From assembly GCA_024679955.1 (NCBI GenBank), contig JAILCQ010000044.1:21198-85197 (forward strand): 64,000 nt of DNA, written 5' to 3'. This DNA is from Bacillota bacterium (GTDB lineage: Bacteria; Bacillota; Dehalobacteriia; UBA4068). Shown one piece after another: positions 1,492 to 13,678 of this stretch. Numbering within the stretch: position 1 is the stretch's first letter; each line of letters opens with the position of its first letter. The position numbers and the translations under genes are program-made. The notes under the pieces are model-generated. The model made no database searches and was not told where the DNA came from. It worked only from the letters and a program-made list of their open reading frames with translations.

Positions 1492-1678
1492 AAGTGCTTT
1501 CTTCGCGGAAAGATAATAGGGAATGAGGTTGGAATCCTCAGCGATCCGGTCACTGTGAACGGGGAGCGGCCTGCATATGCCATTGTCTTTAGGGATGAGA
1601 AGGCGCAGCGCCGCAAGGAGCCGTGAGCCAGGAAACCTGCTTGGAAAGAAGGATGGATAGCTTCCAGAGAAAGTGCTT
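1492..1678 (+). promoter_or_regulatory. Cobalamin (adenosylcobalamin) riboswitch aptamer
   Basis: The conserved blocks of the B12 aptamer appear in order: an aatagggaa segment, ggtTggAATCC, a variant of the GCCACTG loop (ggtcactgtgaac), and the diagnostic 3' block gagccaggaaacctgc at 1625-1640. A closing P1 stem can be drawn between aagtgctttct (1492-1502) and agaaagtgctt (1668-1678), 11 pairs with two G-U wobbles. A terminator hairpin follows at 1748 and the transporter genes after that. This fits transcription attenuation: bound cobalamin favours the terminator and shuts off the operon. Confidence 0.9.
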
Positions 1679-1747
1679 CATCTCAATGCCGTTTCTGCGA
1701 CCGTGACCGCTTTGCGCCGCGGTTTCAAGGGTATGTATGGCTTATGC

Positions 1748-1781
1748 GCCGCTTTCTTCCGGGAAAGCGGCTTTTTCTTTT
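1748..1781 (+). terminator. Riboswitch expression-platform terminator
   Basis: A perfect 9-bp stem, gccgctttc (1748-1756) with gaaagcggc (1763-1771), closes a 6-base loop and is followed by a T-rich tail. It lies 70 bases after the aptamer and 62 bases before the first transporter start. That is the position expected of a conditional terminator controlled by the aptamer. Confidence 0.85.
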
Positions 1782-1842
1782 TGCTTCGGTTTATCCGAAA
1801 GGATCTATATAAATCCATAATTTTAGAAAGGAAAGGAAAAAC

Positions 1843-3477
1843 ATGAACAAAAAATTTTGCATGCTGCTGGTAATCGCCCTTGGGCTGGCGCTTCTATTTA
1901 CGGGATGCGCCTCCGGGAATGCGCCGGGTGCGGCGGATCCTGCGGACGCCTCGTCTGACGCTGCGCCCGACCGGGATACCTCCCAGGTCATCGTCGCCGT
2001 CACCGCCGACTTCTCCGCCGGTTTCGACCCCGTCACCGGCTACGGCCTGCGCTATGATCCCATCCTGCAAAGCCGTCTGGTAAAGACCTGGAACGGTGTG
2101 ATCACCGAAGACCTGGCCACCGACTACAGCGTGGACGACGGCGGCAAAACCTGGCGCTTCCAGCTGCGGGACGACGCCTTCTTCTCCAACGGCGACCAGG
2201 TGAAGGCCTCCGATGCGGCCTTCACCTTCAACGCGGCCAAAGGCGCCGGCGGCAACCTGGATCTTACCAATATGGTAAGCGCCGAGGCCGAGGACGACCT
2301 TACGGTGAAATTCACCCTGGAAAAACCGGACTACACCTTTATTTATCAGGTTTCCAAGCTGGGTATCGTCCCCGAAGCTTTGTATGATGAAAACTACATG
2401 GAAAACCCCGTCGGCTCCGGCCCCTACAAAATGGTACAGTGGGATAAGGGCCAGCAAGCCATCTGGGAATACAATGATTTGTATTATGGCGGCGAGCCCT
2501 CGATCAAACGGATCATCCTGGTCTTCATGGATGAAGACGCCGCTTTCGCCGCCGCCCAAAAGGGCGATGTGGACATGATCGAGACCAATCAGTCCCTGGC
2601 CACCCAAACCATCGACGGCTATTATCTGAAGAACGTGGAAACCATCAACAACTTCGGCATCATTTTCTGCACCGTGCCCGACGAAGGCAAAACCACGGAA
2701 GACGGCAAGAAGATCGGCAACAACGTCACCTGCGACAAAGCCATCCGTCAGGCCATCAGTCTGGGCATCGACCGGGAAGCCATGAATGCGGAAGTGTTCA
2801 ACGGCTACGGCCATCCCTCCGATTCCATGTGCGACCTGATGCCCTGGTTCAATGAAGAAACGGCCTTGAACGACAGCAATTCCGGCCTGGACGTGGCCTG
2901 CAATATCCTGGACGAGGCCGGTTGGGTAGATAACGACGGCGACGGCGTCCGGGAAAAGGACGGCGTAAAAGCGGAATTCGACCTGTATTACACCTCCTCC
3001 AACGGCAACCGCCAGATGGTAGCCATGAACGTGGCCGAGCAGGCCAAAGCCCTGGGCATCAGCGTCGTTCCCAAAGGCGCGGCCAACTCTGATATCCAGG
3101 AGCTGTTCCACAGCGAAGCCTATGTGTTCGGCCGGGGCGACCACACCCCCGTAGAGTTCTACCTGATGTCCTCCACCAATTCCATCGGCGCGGGCTGGAG
3201 CAACAGCGGTTACTATTCCAATCCCACCGTGGACGAATACTTTGATAAAGCTATGGCCTCCGACAATCTGGACGACGTTTATAAATATTACAAACTGGCC
3301 CAATGGGACGGCGCCACCGGCGCCAGCCATATCGGCGACGCCCCCGACGCCTGGTTCGTGCGTCCGGACAACTGCTTCTTTATCCGGGAGGGTCTGGATA
3401 TCGGCACCCAGTCCCTGCATCCTCACGGCGCTTCCCTGCAGGTCTTCAACAATATCCTGGAGTGGAAATGGAACTGA
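1843..3477 (+). CDS. Family 5 solute-binding lipoprotein of a NikA/Opp-type ABC transporter
   Basis: A 544-residue secreted lipoprotein. The N-terminus MNKKFCMLLVIALGLALLFTGC is a lipoprotein signal with Cys22 as the likely lipidated residue. The mature part has the SBP_bac_5 layout: an early LVKTW segment, TWRFQLRDDAFFSNGDQVKASD (the family motif), PVGSGPYKM at about residue 185, and RQAISLGIDREAMN near 305. It would bind substrate outside the membrane and hand it to the two permeases that follow. The family binds peptides, nickel or metal chelates. The cobalamin riboswitch upstream argues for cobalt, a cobalt complex or a corrinoid precursor; that is inference. A strong ribosome site (gaaaggaaag) precedes the ATG. 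Confidence 0.88.
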   Translation: MNKKFCMLLVIALGLALLFTGCASGNAPGAADPADASSDAAPDRDTSQVIVAVTADFSAGFDPVTGYGLRYDPILQSRLVKTWNGVITEDLATDYSVDDGGKTWRFQLRDDAFFSNGDQVKASDAAFTFNAAKGAGGNLDLTNMVSAEAEDDLTVKFTLEKPDYTFIYQVSKLGIVPEALYDENYMENPVGSGPYKMVQWDKGQQAIWEYNDLYYGGEPSIKRIILVFMDEDAAFAAAQKGDVDMIETNQSLATQTIDGYYLKNVETINNFGIIFCTVPDEGKTTEDGKKIGNNVTCDKAIRQAISLGIDREAMNAEVFNGYGHPSDSMCDLMPWFNEETALNDSNSGLDVACNILDEAGWVDNDGDGVREKDGVKAEFDLYYTSSNGNRQMVAMNVAEQAKALGISVVPKGAANSDIQELFHSEAYVFGRGDHTPVEFYLMSSTNSIGAGWSNSGYYSNPTVDEYFDKAMASDNLDDVYKYYKLAQWDGATGASHIGDAPDAWFVRPDNCFFIREGLDIGTQSLHPHGASLQVFNNILEWKWN

Positions 3478-3544
3478 AACGCCTGCGGTAAGCGTATCCG
3501 CCGCATAGGGCGGGTACCGGCTGTCTGAGAAGGGATGTGACCGG

Positions 3545-4531
3545 TTGAACAGCGGACTTTGGAAAGGCTTAGGAACGAATTTTATAAAAATGCTCCTGCT
3601 GCTGCTGGCCGTAAGCGTGGTGACTTTCCTCCTGGTGGAGCTTTCGCCCATAGACGCGGTGAGCTCCTACATCGGGGAGAACGGCGTAAGCGACGAGCAA
3701 AGGGAGATCATTACGGAATACTGGGGGCTGAACGATCCTCCTACGGTGCGCTATGTAAAATGGATCACCAACATCCTTCACGGGGACATGGGTACTTCCA
3801 TGGTCTACCGGCAGCCCGTCATCAAAGTGATAGGGGAGCGCTTTAAGCTCTCCCTTATCCTGATGGCCGTCTCCTGGGTGGTCTCCGGGCTGTTCGGCCT
3901 GCTGTTGGGGATCATAGCCGCCGTCTATAAAGGCAGGGTGGTGGACAAGATCATCAGGGTCTACTGCCTGCTGCTGGAGTCCAGTCCGGCTTTCTGGATC
4001 GGCATCGTGCTGCTGCTGTTTTTTGCCGTCTACCTGGATATTCTGCCCATGGGGCTGGCCGCCCCCATCGGCATGTCCATAGAAGAGGCGACGCTGCCGC
4101 AGCGCATCTACCATCTGGTGCTGCCGGCCTTGGCCCTGATGCTGACGGGCATATCCAAGATCGCCCTACAGACCCGGGAAAAGATGATACAGGTGTTCGA
4201 GAGCGATTTCGCCCTGTTTGCCAGGACCCGGGGCGAGGGCAAATGGACCTTCGTACGCAGGCACGGCCTGCGCAACATCTTGCTGCCTTTTATCACGCTG
4301 CAGTTCGGCTCCATCAGCGAGCTGTTCGGCGGCTCGGTGCTGGCGGAAAGCGTATTTACCTATCCGGGGCTGGGCGAGGCTACCGTGCAGTCCGGTCTTC
4401 GGGGGGACATGCCGCTGTTTCTCGGCATTGCGCTGTTTTCCGCGCTGTTCGTCTTCTGCGGCAACCTGATCGCCAATATACTCTATGCCGTGGTTGACCC
4501 GCGGATCCGGGAAGGGGGAAGATTCCAATGA
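3545..4531 (+). CDS. ABC transporter permease, NikB/DppB type
   Basis: A 328-residue inner-membrane permease of the binding-protein-dependent transport family. A first membrane helix (MLLLLLAVSVVTFLLVELSP) and the N-terminal DppB-type region lead into later helices and the EAA-like loop near FALFARTRGEGKWTFVRRHGLRN, which contacts the ATPases. The final helices end in VVDPRIREGG, common in this family. Translation most likely starts at TTG 3545, about ten bases after an agaaggg ribosome site; the next in-frame ATG would cut into the first helix. The gene overlaps the next permease by four bases (ATGA). Confidence 0.87.
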   Translation: MNSGLWKGLGTNFIKMLLLLLAVSVVTFLLVELSPIDAVSSYIGENGVSDEQREIITEYWGLNDPPTVRYVKWITNILHGDMGTSMVYRQPVIKVIGERFKLSLILMAVSWVVSGLFGLLLGIIAAVYKGRVVDKIIRVYCLLLESSPAFWIGIVLLLFFAVYLDILPMGLAAPIGMSIEEATLPQRIYHLVLPALALMLTGISKIALQTREKMIQVFESDFALFARTRGEGKWTFVRRHGLRNILLPFITLQFGSISELFGGSVLAESVFTYPGLGEATVQSGLRGDMPLFLGIALFSALFVFCGNLIANILYAVVDPRIREGGRFQ

Positions 4532-5379
4532 AGAAAACTCCCGTTCTGACAGGACACGGCCTGCGGAACCGCCGTTCCCAAACGATTTTTATCGTTACCG
4601 TGGCTTTGGCCACTCTGATCCTCATCACCGTGGCCGGGCTCACCATGGACCCGGAAAAATACGCTACGGACTTTTCCGTCAAAAACCAGGCCCCTTCCGC
4701 AGAGCATCTGTTCGGCACGGACTGGATGGGCCGGGATATGCTGATGCGCACCGTAAAAGGGCTTTCCACCAGCATTTACATCGGCCTGCTGGCCTCCATC
4801 GTCACCTCCGTGCTGGCCTTGTTCCTGGGGGTGCTGGCCGGCACCATCGGCCGCTGGGCCACCACCGCCTTCAACTGGATGGTGGATCTGTTCATGGGCG
4901 TGCCCCATCTGATATTGCTGATCCTCATCTCCATACTGCTGGGCCGGGGGGCCCGGGGCGTGATGATCGGCGTGATCGTCACCCACTGGTGCCCGTTGGG
5001 CCGTATCGTGCAGGCGGAGATCATGTCTCTGAAAAACTCCCAGTATGTGCAGGCCGCCGTGCGCATGGGCAAATCCAAGTGGTGGGTGGCCATGCGCCAC
5101 ATGCTGCCCCATGTGATCCCCCAGTTTATCGTGGGGCTGGTGCTGATGTTCCCCCATGCCATCATGCACGAGGCTTCCATCACCTTCCTGGGTTTCGGCC
5201 TGCCGCCGGAGCAGCCCGCCATCGGCGTCATTCTCTCCGAGTCGATGAAATATCTCACCACCGGCATCTGGTGGCTGGCATTGCTGCCTGGCCTGAGCCT
5301 TCTGGCGATCGTTGTGCTGTTTGAGGAGATCGGCAGCAATCTGCGCCTGCTGATCGACCCCTTCAGCGCGCAGGAATAA
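4528..5379 (+). CDS. ABC transporter permease, NikC/DppC type
   Basis: A 283-residue second permease. It has the DppC features: an N-terminal helix (TIFIVTVALATLILITVAGL), the HLFGTDWMGRDMLMRTVKG motif near residue 65 (family form GTDxxGRD), and the EAA loop around QAAVRMGKSKWWVAMRHMLPH. It would pair with the upstream NikB-like permease to form the channel. Its start overlaps the stop of that gene by four bases, so the two subunits are translationally coupled. The ATPase genes follow after 13 bases. Confidence 0.87.
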   Translation: MKKTPVLTGHGLRNRRSQTIFIVTVALATLILITVAGLTMDPEKYATDFSVKNQAPSAEHLFGTDWMGRDMLMRTVKGLSTSIYIGLLASIVTSVLALFLGVLAGTIGRWATTAFNWMVDLFMGVPHLILLILISILLGRGARGVMIGVIVTHWCPLGRIVQAEIMSLKNSQYVQAAVRMGKSKWWVAMRHMLPHVIPQFIVGLVLMFPHAIMHEASITFLGFGLPPEQPAIGVILSESMKYLTTGIWWLALLPGLSLLAIVVLFEEIGSNLRLLIDPFSAQE

Positions 5380-5392
5380 CGGGAGGCGCAAT

Positions 5393-6202
5393 ATGGGAAA
5401 AACGATTTTGGAAGTAAAAGACCTCTCCGTCAGCTTTCGCATGTATGACAGGGGCCTGACCCAATATGATCTGAATGTTATCAGCAACCTGTCCGTGACG
5501 GTAAACGAAGGGGAGATCATGGTGATCGTCGGCTCTTCGGGCAGCGGCAAAAGCGTGTTGGCCCATGCCGTGCTGGGCATACTGCCCAGCAACGCCCAAA
5601 TCAGCGGCGAGATCAACTATGACGGCAAGCCCCTTACGGCCGCCGTGCGCAAAGAAAAGGTGGGATCGGAAATCATCATGATCCCCCAATCCGTCACCTA
5701 TCTGGACCCCCTGATGAAGGTGGGCCGTCAGGTGCAGGGCCTGAAAGGCTCCAAGGCCATGCAGCAGCAGGCCTTTCGCCGCTACGGCCTGAAGGACAGC
5801 GTGGCCGGGATGTACCCCTTTCAGCTTTCCGGCGGCATGACGCGGCGGGTGCTGATTTCCACGGCCACCATTTCCGACGCCCGGCTGATCCTGGCCGACG
5901 AGCCCACGCCGGGCCTGAGCCAGGACATCGCGGAGGAAACCATGCGCAACTTCCGGGAGCTGGCCGACGAGGGCCGGGGCATATTGATGATCACCCACGA
6001 CATCGATATCGCCCTGTTGGTGGCGGACCGGATCGCCGTGTTTTACGACGGCAGGACGGTGGACGTCTGCAACCGGGAGGACTTTCTCAAAGGCGGCGAC
6101 GCCTTGAAACACCCCTACACCCGGGCCCTGTGGGCCGCGCTGCCGCGGAACGGCTTTCAGGCCGTGGCGCCGGAAGATTTTATGAAGGAGGACCAGCCAT
6201 GA
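5393..6202 (+). CDS. ABC transporter ATPase, NikD/DppD type
   Basis: A 269-residue cytoplasmic ATPase. Walker A is GSSGSGKS near residue 46, the signature is LSGGMTRR near 144, Walker B is LILADEPT near 165, and the switch histidine is in MITHDID near 200. The protein is short and seems to lack the C-terminal extension found in many oligopeptide-transporter ATPases. That compact form is closer to NikD. It partners with the next ATPase, whose start overlaps this stop by four bases. A ribosome site (cgggaggcgca) precedes the ATG. Confidence 0.87.
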   Translation: MGKTILEVKDLSVSFRMYDRGLTQYDLNVISNLSVTVNEGEIMVIVGSSGSGKSVLAHAVLGILPSNAQISGEINYDGKPLTAAVRKEKVGSEIIMIPQSVTYLDPLMKVGRQVQGLKGSKAMQQQAFRRYGLKDSVAGMYPFQLSGGMTRRVLISTATISDARLILADEPTPGLSQDIAEETMRNFRELADEGRGILMITHDIDIALLVADRIAVFYDGRTVDVCNREDFLKGGDALKHPYTRALWAALPRNGFQAVAPEDFMKEDQP

Positions 6203-6855
6203 CGGAAGAAACGGCCGCCGCAAAACGAGTGTTGCTGGAGGCAAAAGACGTTAGTTTTCGTTACGGTTCCGGGCCCTGGATCCTGCGGAACGTCTATCTG
6301 AAAATATACGAAGGGGAACGGGTGGGCCTGGTGGGCCCCTCGGGCTACGGCAAAAGCACCCTGTCCCGCATCCTTTCCGGCTATGAAAAGCCTACCAAGG
6401 GGCAGGTGCTGTGGAAGGGCGCGCCCCTGCCCAAGGAAGGCTACTGCCCGCTGCAGATGATATACCAGCACCCGGAAAAGGCGGTGAACCCCCGGTGGCG
6501 CCTGCAGGACACGCTGAACGAGGCCTGGACCCCCGACGACGAATTGCTGGCGGCCCTGCGCATCAACAAGGAGCTTTGGTTCCGCCGCTGGCCCAACGAG
6601 CTTTCCGGCGGCGAATTGCAGCGTTTCTGCGTGGCCCGGGTGCTGGGCCCGCAGACGGAATTCATTATCGCCGATGAAATGAGTACCATGCTGGACGCCA
6701 TCACCCAGGCGCAGATATGGAATGTGCTTTTGGACGTCGCGCGCAAACGCGGCCTGGGTATGCTGGTGATCACCCACAGTATGGCTTTGGCCGAGAAGGT
6801 ATGCACCCGCATCGTCGACCTGGCCGAGCTGAATATGGTGGGCCACGACGCATAA
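6199..6855 (+). CDS. ABC transporter ATPase, NikE/DppF type
   Basis: The ORF track begins at 6130, but the ATG at 6199 is better: it overlaps the upstream stop as ATGA and lies just after tgaaggagg. The protein is then 218 residues. Walker A is GPSGYGKS (near 46), the signature LSGGELQR (near 134), and Walker B FIIADEMSTMLD, where the usual ADEPT is ADEMS. It ends soon after the MLVITHSMALAEKV switch region, so it is a minimal ATPase domain. It completes the five-gene importer. A strong bidirectional terminator follows. Confidence 0.87.
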   Translation: MTEETAAAKRVLLEAKDVSFRYGSGPWILRNVYLKIYEGERVGLVGPSGYGKSTLSRILSGYEKPTKGQVLWKGAPLPKEGYCPLQMIYQHPEKAVNPRWRLQDTLNEAWTPDDELLAALRINKELWFRRWPNELSGGELQRFCVARVLGPQTEFIIADEMSTMLDAITQAQIWNVLLDVARKRGLGMLVITHSMALAEKVCTRIVDLAELNMVGHDA

Positions 6856-6976: not shown

Positions 6977-7891
6977 TTATTTTAGCACGCATGTCCCGCA
7001 TGGCTGCAGGTTACGGGCGTCCACTTCATCCCAGGTTATCTCATGGCTGTATTTTCCGGCACATTCTGCTTCATAATGATATTTGGTGCTGTTGGAGCCG
7101 CCTGTGTATACATGCCCGTGGTAGTTTTCCTCCCCTACGATTTTCCGTTCTGCAGAAGCGGCGTTCCTGGTGGGGGTTACATCCACAGTATTGTTGGGGA
7201 TCAAGGGGAGGCTATTGGCGAGGTTCAGAGTGACGCTCTTGCGGAGGTTCGTATCCACCATTCTGGTGACCAGCGCGGCGACCTCCGATCTTTTGATATC
7301 GGATCGGGGGTTGAAGGTACCCTTGTCGTCGCTGCCGGTCAGTATCCCGGCGCGATAGAGTTTATAAATATCCGCGGCCTGGGCGTCCGTTGTCTTGACG
7401 TCGGGAATGGCGTTATCTTCCACGGTATTGATGGCCGGCAGGGCGCTGTCGGGAAGCGCCTTGGCCATGATGGCCGCGTATTGCGTGCGCGTCGCCTTGG
7501 CCGTCATGTTCGCGTATTCGCCGGCTTGGATGATGCCATTGGCTGCCGCGTAATCCACGTAAACCTGATACCAGGGATCGCTCTGCGGGAAATTCGCTTC
7601 GCCGGTATAGTAAATGCTGTGGATGCGGCAGGCAAGGGTGATCGCCGCCGCGATATTGACGCTGCCGTCAGGGGAAAACCTGTTTTCGGATTCGCCTTTT
7701 ACCAGGTCCAGTTCATAAGCCGTTTTCACGCTTTCGGCATACCAGCTTGCGGCTGCAACGTCGGTGAATTTGCCGGCGGGATAGGCGTTGACCTTCGTAA
7801 AGTTGGAAAGCCCCTCTGCCGCCAGCGCCGTTGCCGTCATGCTGAAAACCAGCGCAAAGGCCAGTATAAATGAGATTACTCGCTTTTTCAC
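6977..7891 (-). CDS. Secreted SLH-domain protein with C-terminal Cys/His motif
   Basis: The track ORF starts at 7975, but GTG at 7891 is preferred. It follows aggaggataccgac and gives an immediate signal peptide (VKKRVISFILAFALVFSMTATALA). The protein is then 304 residues. Three SLH repeats follow: FTDVAAASWYAESVKTAYEL, DPWYQVYVDYAAANGI and a third near DAQAADIYKLYRAGILTG with FNPRSDIKRSEVAAL. SLH repeats anchor proteins to pyruvylated cell-wall polymer. The last 45 residues contain KYHYEAECAGKY and PCGTC. This resembles a small cysteine motif (YHxxxC ... PCxxC) often found at the C-terminus of secreted proteins. Its function is unknown. Confidence 0.8.
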   Translation of the reverse strand: MKKRVISFILAFALVFSMTATALAAEGLSNFTKVNAYPAGKFTDVAAASWYAESVKTAYELDLVKGESENRFSPDGSVNIAAAITLACRIHSIYYTGEANFPQSDPWYQVYVDYAAANGIIQAGEYANMTAKATRTQYAAIMAKALPDSALPAINTVEDNAIPDVKTTDAQAADIYKLYRAGILTGSDDKGTFNPRSDIKRSEVAALVTRMVDTNLRKSVTLNLANSLPLIPNNTVDVTPTRNAASAERKIVGEENYHGHVYTGGSNSTKYHYEAECAGKYSHEITWDEVDARNLQPCGTCVLK

Positions 7892-7934
7892 GTCGGTATC
7901 CTCCTTTTCTCTACCGTAATACATTCTTACAAGC

Positions 7935-7963
7935 ATTATACGATGGTAGTAACCATCGGTCAA
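7935..7963 (-). promoter_or_regulatory. Sigma-A promoter with operator-like palindrome filling the spacer
   Basis: Read on the minus strand: TTGACC (-35), exactly 17 bases, then TATAAT (-10). The spacer is gatggttactaccatcg, and with one flanking base it forms an inverted repeat with 7-bp arms (CGATGGT/ACCATCG) and a 4-base centre. The transcript would start near 7928, about 37 bases before the GTG of the SLH gene. A repressor bound there would block polymerase. Confidence 0.8.
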
Positions 7964-7969
7964 GCCCGA

Positions 7970-8006
7970 AAACAAAGCCTCCCCCGGCTATACCGGGGGA
8001 GGCTCT
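7970..8006 (-). terminator. Intrinsic terminator of the aminotransferase gene
   Basis: On the minus strand, agcctcccccgg and ccgggggaggct form a 12-bp stem around a 5-base loop, followed by TTTGTTTT. It is about 90 bases beyond the aminotransferase stop and just before the SLH promoter. Confidence 0.85.
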
Positions 8007-11782: not shown

Positions 11783-13678
11783 CTATTGCATCAACTGGCA
11801 GATCAGCGCCGCAAAGGCCTGGGGGTCTTCCAGGGGCAGGCCTTCCACCAGCCGGGCCTGATCGTAGAGCAGCGCCGCGTAGCGGGCCAATTTGTCCTCG
11901 TCCTTGTCCTGCCAGGCCCGGTCCAGGGCGGCGAACACCGGATGATTGGCGTTCAGCTCCAGTACCTGCTGGCTTTTTACCTGCTCCGCCCCGGGCATTT
12001 TGCTCAGCACCTTTTCCATTTCCAGGGATACCGGCCCCTGGGCGGAAAGGCTGGCGGCATGATCGCCCAGCAGGGTGGAGGCGGTCACTTTGGTCACTTT
12101 GCCGTCCAGGGCTTTTTCCATGGCCGCCAGCAAATCTTTGTTTTGCTCTTCCAGGGCGGCGGCGGCTTCTTTTTCTTCGGCATTGGCCAACTCCAAATCG
12201 CCGGAATTGACGTTTTTGAATTCCTTCTCCTGATAGACGCCTACCATCTGCAGCACGAATTCGTCCACGTCCTCGCTGCACAGCAGCACGTCCATGCCTT
12301 TGTTCAGCACCAGTTGGCTGGCGGGCAGCTTGGCCAGACGCTGGACGTCGTCGCCGGCGGCATAATAAATATATTTCTGCTCCGCCGGCATGGCCGCGGC
12401 ATATTCCTCCAGGGTCAGCATTTTTTGCTCTTTGCCGGACCAGAACAGCAGCAGATCCGCCAGCATATCCCGATGCGCGCCGAAATCGCTGTACGCGCCG
12501 AATTTCAGCTGCCGGCCGAATTCTTGGAAAAAGCTTTCATAGTCTTCACGCTGGTTTTTCAGCATGGTCAAAAGCTCGCTTTTGATCTTTTTTTCCAAAG
12601 AGGCGGCGATTTTTTTCATTTGATGGTCTTGCTGCAGCATCTCCCGGGAAAGGTTGAGGCTGACATCTTCGCTGTCCACCACGCCGCGGATAAAGCTGAA
12701 ATGATCCGGCAGCAGATCGGCGCATTTTTCCTGGATCAACACCCCGGAGGCATACAAGGCCAGACCCTTTTGAAAATCCCGGCTGTAATAATCCCAAGGG
12801 GCGCGGCCGGGCACGAACAGCAGGGCCGTGTAGCTGACCCGGCCTTCCGCCCGGCTGAAAATGGTTTTGGCCGGCGGATTGCCGTCATGGAAACGGTTTT
12901 TATAAAAGTCCGCGTACTCTTCGGCGCTTACCTCGTTTTGATTCCGCTTCCACAGGGGGGCCATGCTGTTGAGGATCTCCTCTTCCGTATAGGTCTCAAA
13001 TTCCGGGGCATAGTCCTCGCCGGCGTTTTCCGGCCGGGGTTTGGGACGGCTTTTATGCCGCAGCATACGAATGGGATAGCGAATATAATCGCTGTAGTTT
13101 TTGACCAATTGGGCCAGCCGCCATTCCTGCAAAAACTCGCTGTAGCGGTCGTTTTCCGTATCTTCCCGCAGTTTGAGTATGATATCCGTGCCCACCTGCT
13201 CTTTTTCCGCCGGGGTGATGGTATACCCTTCCGCCCCGTTGCTTTGCCATTGCCAGGCGCCTTCCCCCTGCAGCGGCCGGCTGATCACCGTCACCTGTTC
13301 CGCCACCATAAAGGCGGAATAAAAGCCCACGCCGAATTGGCCGATGATGTCGATGTTTTCGCTGACGTTCACCTGCTTAAAATCCTGGCTGCCGCTTTTG
13401 GCGATGACGCCCAGATTGCTTTCCAGTTCCTTATCGCTCATGCCGCAGCCGTTATCGCTGATGGTCAAAGTTCGTTCCGCCGCATTGGGGGTGATGCGAA
13501 TGGCCAATTCTTCCCCATCCAGCGAAATATTTTCCTGGCTCATGCTGAGGTAATAGCGTTTGTCCAAAGCGTCGGAGGCGTTGCTGATCAGTTCCCGCAA
13601 AAAGATTTCTTTATTGGTATAAACGGAATGGATCATCAAATCCAACAGTTTTTGGCTTTCGGCTTTAAATTTGCGCAT
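11783..13678 (-). CDS. htpG: Molecular chaperone HtpG (Hsp90 family)
   Basis: A 631-residue protein, normal for bacterial Hsp90. The GHKL ATPase motifs are clear at the N-terminus: FLRELISNASDALDK, the TISDNGCGMS lid region and GQFGVGFYSAFM. The middle domain contains LFVPGRAPWDYY and LNLSREMLQQD. The C-terminal dimerisation domain follows. It is an ATP-driven cytoplasmic chaperone that acts with the Hsp70 system. The ribosome site gaaaggagctcctgaacg precedes the ATG. No CIRCE element was found upstream. A 700-residue ORF on the plus strand is only a shadow of this gene. Confidence 0.95.
   Translation of the reverse strand: MRKFKAESQKLLDLMIHSVYTNKEIFLRELISNASDALDKRYYLSMSQENISLDGEELAIRITPNAAERTLTISDNGCGMSDKELESNLGVIAKSGSQDFKQVNVSENIDIIGQFGVGFYSAFMVAEQVTVISRPLQGEGAWQWQSNGAEGYTITPAEKEQVGTDIILKLREDTENDRYSEFLQEWRLAQLVKNYSDYIRYPIRMLRHKSRPKPRPENAGEDYAPEFETYTEEEILNSMAPLWKRNQNEVSAEEYADFYKNRFHDGNPPAKTIFSRAEGRVSYTALLFVPGRAPWDYYSRDFQKGLALYASGVLIQEKCADLLPDHFSFIRGVVDSEDVSLNLSREMLQQDHQMKKIAASLEKKIKSELLTMLKNQREDYESFFQEFGRQLKFGAYSDFGAHRDMLADLLLFWSGKEQKMLTLEEYAAAMPAEQKYIYYAAGDDVQRLAKLPASQLVLNKGMDVLLCSEDVDEFVLQMVGVYQEKEFKNVNSGDLELANAEEKEAAAALEEQNKDLLAAMEKALDGKVTKVTASTLLGDHAASLSAQGPVSLEMEKVLSKMPGAEQVKSQQVLELNANHPVFAALDRAWQDKDEDKLARYAALLYDQARLVEGLPLEDPQAFAALICQLMQ

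Follow-up and report, generated by a model that had tools for sequence, protein, structure and literature searches.

A cobalamin riboswitch precedes a YntA-type importer operon, probably re-assigned from nickel to cobalt, in a Bacillota genome

The window (the whole 64,000-nt stretch of DNA that was analysed) contained a single Rfam match, a cobalamin riboswitch aptamer at 1475–1658 on the + strand, followed by an intrinsic terminator (1748–1771, + strand) and five co-directional + strand genes (1843–6855). These genes encoded a solute-binding lipoprotein of 544 aa (1843–3477; SBP_bac_5, PF00496, 236 bits); permease 1, in the YntB/NikB/OppB position (3545–4531; BPD_transp_1, PF00528, 137 bits, with PF19300); permease 2, in the YntC/NikC/OppC position (4528–5379; BPD_transp_1, PF00528, 75 bits); ATPase 1, in the YntD/NikD position (5393–6202; ABC_tran, PF00005, 90 bits); and a short ATPase 2 of 218 aa, in the YntE/NikE position (6199–6855; ABC_tran, PF00005, 81 bits). 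The domain content bears out the five tightly packed importer genes described in an earlier note on this DNA. The first intergenic gap was 67 bases, the remaining junctions overlapped or nearly so, and a clear purine-rich ribosome site preceded four of the five genes. For ATPase 2, the ATG at 6199, located after AAGGAGG, is a likelier start than the GTG at 6130 of the longest frame. Immediately past the operon, the opposite strand encoded an exported protein with an SLH domain (6977–7975, − strand).

The aptamer scored 113.1 bits against the RF00174 covariance model (gathering score 31.5; E 1.5e-27) and covered model positions 1–189, i.e., its full length; it was the only RF00174 match in the window. 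A chance aptamer was rejected at this score and E value. The earlier note had proposed a cobalamin riboswitch here and a search with this model as the check; the score obtained was far above threshold, with a start 17 bases 5' of that note's position 1492. The P1 helix that the note had considered drawable was also present, AACUUUCCAAGU being paired with CUUGGAAAG. Upstream, a promoter-like site (TTGAAA and TAATAT separated by 17 nt; 1361–1389, + strand) was found by consensus scan only, with 9 of 12 matches, and is weak, as the scan returned six sites where 3.2 were expected.

The terminator had 10 pairs and then TTTTTCTTTT; its hairpin, GCCGCTTTCTTCCGGGAAAGCGGC, lay 90 bases 3' of the aptamer and ran into TTTTTCTTTTT, with the T-rich tail extending to about 1782. 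At −15.8 kcal/mol (z −3.1 against shuffles) a chance hairpin was rejected, and the terminator seen in the initial reading was confirmed. The 3' strand of P1, UUGGAAAGAAGG (1641–1652, + strand), doubled as an anti-terminator strand whose terminator-side partner was the 5' arm at 1752–1762. Duplex energies for this strand were −12.3 kcal/mol with the P1 5' strand and −10.3 kcal/mol with the terminator 5' arm. That arm was the best partner of the P1 3' strand in the leader, equalled by 88 of 5000 shuffled arms, and within the segment 1640–1763 the predicted per-base probability of the anti-terminator pairing was 0.38–1.0, mostly above 0.7. In the predicted minimum-energy fold of the whole leader P1 and the terminator coexisted; for transcripts ending at 1760–1763, P1 was absent from the predicted minimum fold.

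By prediction, the aptamer has an expression platform consisting of the terminator and a mutually exclusive P1/anti-terminator pairing, and the predicted leader folds fit a transcriptional OFF switch. As these two pairings compete for the P1 3' strand, the operon should be switched off by B12. Plentiful B12 would hold the aptamer in shape, so that P1 would retain its 3' strand, the terminator would form and transcription would end before 1843. Under B12 shortage this 3' strand would instead be captured by the 5' arm of the terminator, allowing production of the importer.

None of the five NCBIfam NikA–NikE equivalog models reached its curated cut-off: TIGR02294 (125 bits, cut-off 393), TIGR02789 (185, cut-off 447), TIGR02790 (151, cut-off 358), TIGR02770 (139, cut-off 319), and TIGR02769 (129, cut-off 333). 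NikABCDE membership was rejected on this basis. The best NCBIfam models for ATPase 1 and ATPase 2 were NikD (139 bits, below the 318.7 cut-off) and NikE (132 bits, below the 354 cut-off), respectively. The binding protein gave 43 bits with the DppA model (cut-off 1005) and 19 bits with the OppA model (cut-off 947); DppA and OppA also ranked well under YntA by sequence and fold, and membership in either was rejected. Its best solved relative was Yersinia pestis YntA (PDB 3ry3, 4ofl; E 3e-93), with NikZ, NikA and DppA trailing well behind in the comparison with solved proteins. With a 30-relative profile YntA scored 610 bits and the next solved protein, CcNikZ-II (8efz), 265 bits. The AlphaFold model of the binding protein (mean pLDDT 89.3) aligned in Foldseek with 4ofl, entitled "YntA from Yersinia pestis in complex with Ni(L-His)2", at TM 0.87/0.95 and 1.8 Å. 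Since YntA leads by sequence, profile and fold, the binding protein belongs to the YntA branch and not to NikA, DppA or OppA. The earlier description of a NikABCDE/Opp-type importer was thus right as to a family-5 importer, its NikABCDE label calls for narrowing to the YntA branch, and the binding protein did not group with the dipeptide binders.

A scan of species genomes returned 80 relatives at 39–44% identity, mostly from Bacillales and Clostridia with some from Bacteroidota. Together with seven further relatives these made up 87 loci, in which at least one genome was counted twice. Median identities with family members were 52% for permease 1 and 49% for permease 2, and the order binding protein, two permeases, two ATPases was kept in at least 60 of the 87 loci. 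A NikR gene lay upstream on the same strand in 25 of the 87, most within about 600 bases; urease genes were nearby in 10, and both occurred together in two (the NikR, urease alpha, UreF and UreG-type identities of neighbour proteins were checked). The upstream NikR and the urease genes indicate that the family moves a transition metal, and, judged by gene neighbourhood, the YntA branch elsewhere looks like a nickel importer family.

A six-motif scan, run at a threshold that recovers 12 of the 15 riboswitches of the window's own genome, detected no B12 riboswitch immediately 5' of the importer in the same orientation, either in the 87 loci or in later ones. Rfam searches found no riboswitch in front of the importer at 16 of the loci and no match for seven relatives at 38–42% identity. 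A conserved riboswitch–importer pair was therefore sought but not found among these relatives (87 loci and later ones). Three true cobalamin riboswitches did neighbour relatives' operons, none of them in front: two faced away and one was downstream. In Paenibacillus radicis (L090) and P. foliorum (L097) the YntA-type operon was divergent from a riboswitch-controlled CbiM-N-Q-O operon (RF00174, 130 and 132 bits), an arrangement that hints at a cobalt role for those members too. In Paenibacillus phyllosphaerae (L118) a NikR-linked YntA-type operon was immediately followed by a strong cobalamin riboswitch (11976–12185, + strand; 104.8 bits), beyond which no clear gene lay nearby.

Compared with 84 relatives, the window binding protein kept 122 and deviated at 34 of the 156 positions with a conservation of 90% or higher, more than any other member did; three others (L037, L111, L039) deviated at 30–32. 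At near-invariant positions the permeases deviated at 17 of 121 and 11 of 93, and the ATPases at 5 of 86 and 3 of 56. This decrease from binding protein to permeases to ATPases is as expected if cargo recognition shifts. Near-invariant changes included R271F, W502D, N507R, and H510N, with W415N at a lower threshold; all five residues are kept in Yersinia YntA and nearly all relatives, and their putative assignment to the binding site follows from this conservation. At 22 compared positions no other member shared more than two of the window protein's states. The HPHG motif at 526–529 was kept, with H528 invariant and H526 common in the 30-member alignment. The tree placed the window protein within the YntA branch and among Clostridia-type MAGs, with a very long terminal branch (2.39 changes per column). 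The residue pattern fits retention of metal binding together with a change in cargo chemistry. Relaxed constraint on the long branch would leave a similar pattern and could account for the loss of near-invariant residues without a new specificity. That the binding protein was rebuilt for a new cargo such as a specific cobalt chelate or corrin precursor, turning a nickel importer into a dedicated B12-precursor importer, is unlikely.

The genome (1.92 Mb in 44 contigs, 95.7% complete) contained 15 RF00174 matches, 14 of them above the gathering score (loci L010–L022), which is many for a 1.9 Mb genome; one locus carried a tandem pair (L019, 9352–9593 and 9106–9260, − strand). Riboswitches preceded haem/corrin genes with cobA-hemD (L013), cbiL and cbiK (L015), cobU-cobS-cobD (L018), and a CbiQ-CbiO-CbiM cobalt importer (L011) with the single CbiM of the genome. 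A further riboswitch cluster (L016) encoded an exported CbiK-like lipoprotein, a BtuF-like protein, FecCD, an ATPase, and CobB/CbiA, and continued (L151) with cbiC, cbiD, cbiF, cbiG, cbiH, cbiJ/T, cobQ, and an adenosyltransferase. The anaerobic corrin genes lie in or follow riboswitch operons. From this gene content, corrin synthesis appears to take the anaerobic, early-cobalt route, and the organism would need cobalt.

A need for nickel is likewise indicated by a NuoD/hydrogenase-like, group-4-like subunit with RVCGIC and DPCYSC motifs and by a LarC-like protein. Family searches of the genome found neither NicO nor NikR. A second family-5 operon (L040) scored 397 bits with the Opp2B nickel permease model, above its cut-off of 350, and an Rfam search found no B12 riboswitch at this Nik/Opp2-type operon; nickel therefore has another possible route. 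The simplest reading is a division of labour in which the Nik/Opp2 operon would serve nickel and the window operon cobalt.

Several other riboswitch-associated genes were observed in this genome. The CbiK-type cobalt chelatase with a lipoprotein-like signal (L016, 8908–9846, − strand) adjoined a second small lipoprotein and the BtuF-FecCD-ATPase set within the B12-riboswitch operon; as corrin synthesis is cytoplasmic, export of a chelatase is unexpected. Near other B12 riboswitches were a 1165-aa SLH protein with DUF4430 (L019, 4156–7653, − strand), a DUF4430 lipoprotein beside an ECF importer set (L022, 3488–4363, + strand), and an SLH protein with a weak terpene-cyclase-like match (L013, 9518–11167, − strand). 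Transcobalamin and intrinsic factor have a C-terminal domain of the DUF4430 type, and these DUF4430/SLH proteins may be surface B12 binders of that kind. An unusual target was an alcohol-dehydrogenase-like gene (ADH_N and zinc-binding dehydrogenase domains) preceded by a cobalamin riboswitch of 87.6 bits (L012, 1060–1229, + strand).

Taken together, the operon probably encodes a B12-repressed, YntABCDE-derived nickel importer that has been re-assigned to cobalt for corrin synthesis, carrying free Co2+ or a small Co chelate, because a B12 riboswitch heads a metal-family importer in a corrin-making genome with a separate nickel-type operon. B12-riboswitch control in a corrin-making genome is the context expected of a cobalt importer, and control of cobalt transporters by B12 riboswitches is well documented (PMC3766115, PMC7689651). 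The lipoprotein would capture the metal, with the conserved HPHG at 526–529 as the likeliest ligand, and would hand it to the two permeases, transport being driven by the two ATPases. Against this reading, CbiQ-CbiO-CbiM is already present in a riboswitch operon, and the window importer would be a second cobalt route. The genome's own need for nickel also counts against it, as do the possibility of relaxed constraint on the long branch and the failure to find the riboswitch pairing in any close relative among the loci searched. Among the cargoes named in the earlier note (cobalt, a cobalt chelate or a corrinoid precursor), cobalt is the best supported, while the corrinoid precursor is weakened by the separate BtuF/FecCD/ATPase riboswitch operon.

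The importer might still carry nickel, or nickel and cobalt together, with the riboswitch only tying its expression to low B12. The NikR and urease links of the family, the nickel system represented by Yersinia Ynt (PMC2667541), and a genome that has a hydrogenase-like subunit with nickel-cysteine motifs and a LarC-like protein, without NikR or NicO, all speak for this. It is nevertheless rather doubtful: B12 is no reporter of nickel need, the Nik/Opp2-type operon stands separately without a B12 riboswitch, and R271, W415, W502, N507, and H510 have changed here though kept in YntA and nearly all relatives. Import of a corrinoid or corrin precursor, e.g., cobinamide, would agree with the frequent control of corrinoid uptake by B12 riboswitches (PMC3766115), with the varied cargo accepted by family-5 binding proteins, and with residue changes that could have opened the cleft. 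It appears quite improbable given that a BtuF-like protein, FecCD permease and ATPase already occupy one riboswitch operon and a DUF4430 lipoprotein with an ECF set another, that relatives with informative context point to nickel, and that the HPHG motif is kept. Most family-5 importers carry peptides, and this binding protein has diverged on a long branch, so uptake of peptides or amino acids (e.g., histidine) with an incidental riboswitch was also weighed; with YntA and then NikZ-type proteins as the closest solved relatives, DppA and OppA far lower, and a complete predicted expression platform immediately before the operon, it is very improbable.

If the cobalt reading is correct, cobalt uptake can go unnoticed where operons of this type are annotated as importers of nickel or peptides. 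The YntA branch is also a naturally occurring test case for shifts in the metal preference of a nickel binding protein, pairing NikR-linked members with a B12-controlled, residue-shifted member in a branch that has a solved Ni(L-His)2 complex.

The closest known system, YntABCDE of Yersinia (PDB 4ofl, 4ofo, 3ry3), shares with the window operon the five-gene make-up and the binding-protein branch, with 35% identity over nearly the full length of the binding protein and TM 0.95 to 4ofl. It differs in that the solved YntA structure contains Ni(L-His)2 and the literature describes the system as one for nickel, Zhang et al. (2009, PMC2667541) treating YntABCDE as a distant family of nickel importers, whereas the window operon is B12-riboswitch-controlled and several residues conserved in YntA are replaced in its binding protein. 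The next-nearest solved folds, NikZ of Campylobacter jejuni NikZYXWV and CcNikZ-II, are nickel binders whose C-terminal GHHG aligns beside the window protein's HPHG, but at 21–22% identity they belong to a different branch (218 and 265 bits, against 610 for YntA). The CbiMNQO cobalt ECF importers under B12 riboswitches have the same regulation and proposed cargo as the window operon, and this genome itself carries one set (L011); their energy-coupling-factor architecture is unrelated and lacks a family-5 binding lipoprotein. The nearest precedent in regulation is NikABCDE of Clostridium tetani and Desulfitobacterium hafniense, likewise a family-5 metal importer, which was predicted not to be nickel-specific from the B12 riboswitch in front of it, unlike the nickel-specific remainder (Zhang et al., 2009, PMC2667541). 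Those systems are filed under NikABCDE, while the window importer is of the YntA branch. A predicted riboswitch-controlled NikABCDE is thus already known; what the present case adds is membership of the YntA branch, the shift in residues and an expression platform worked out by prediction.
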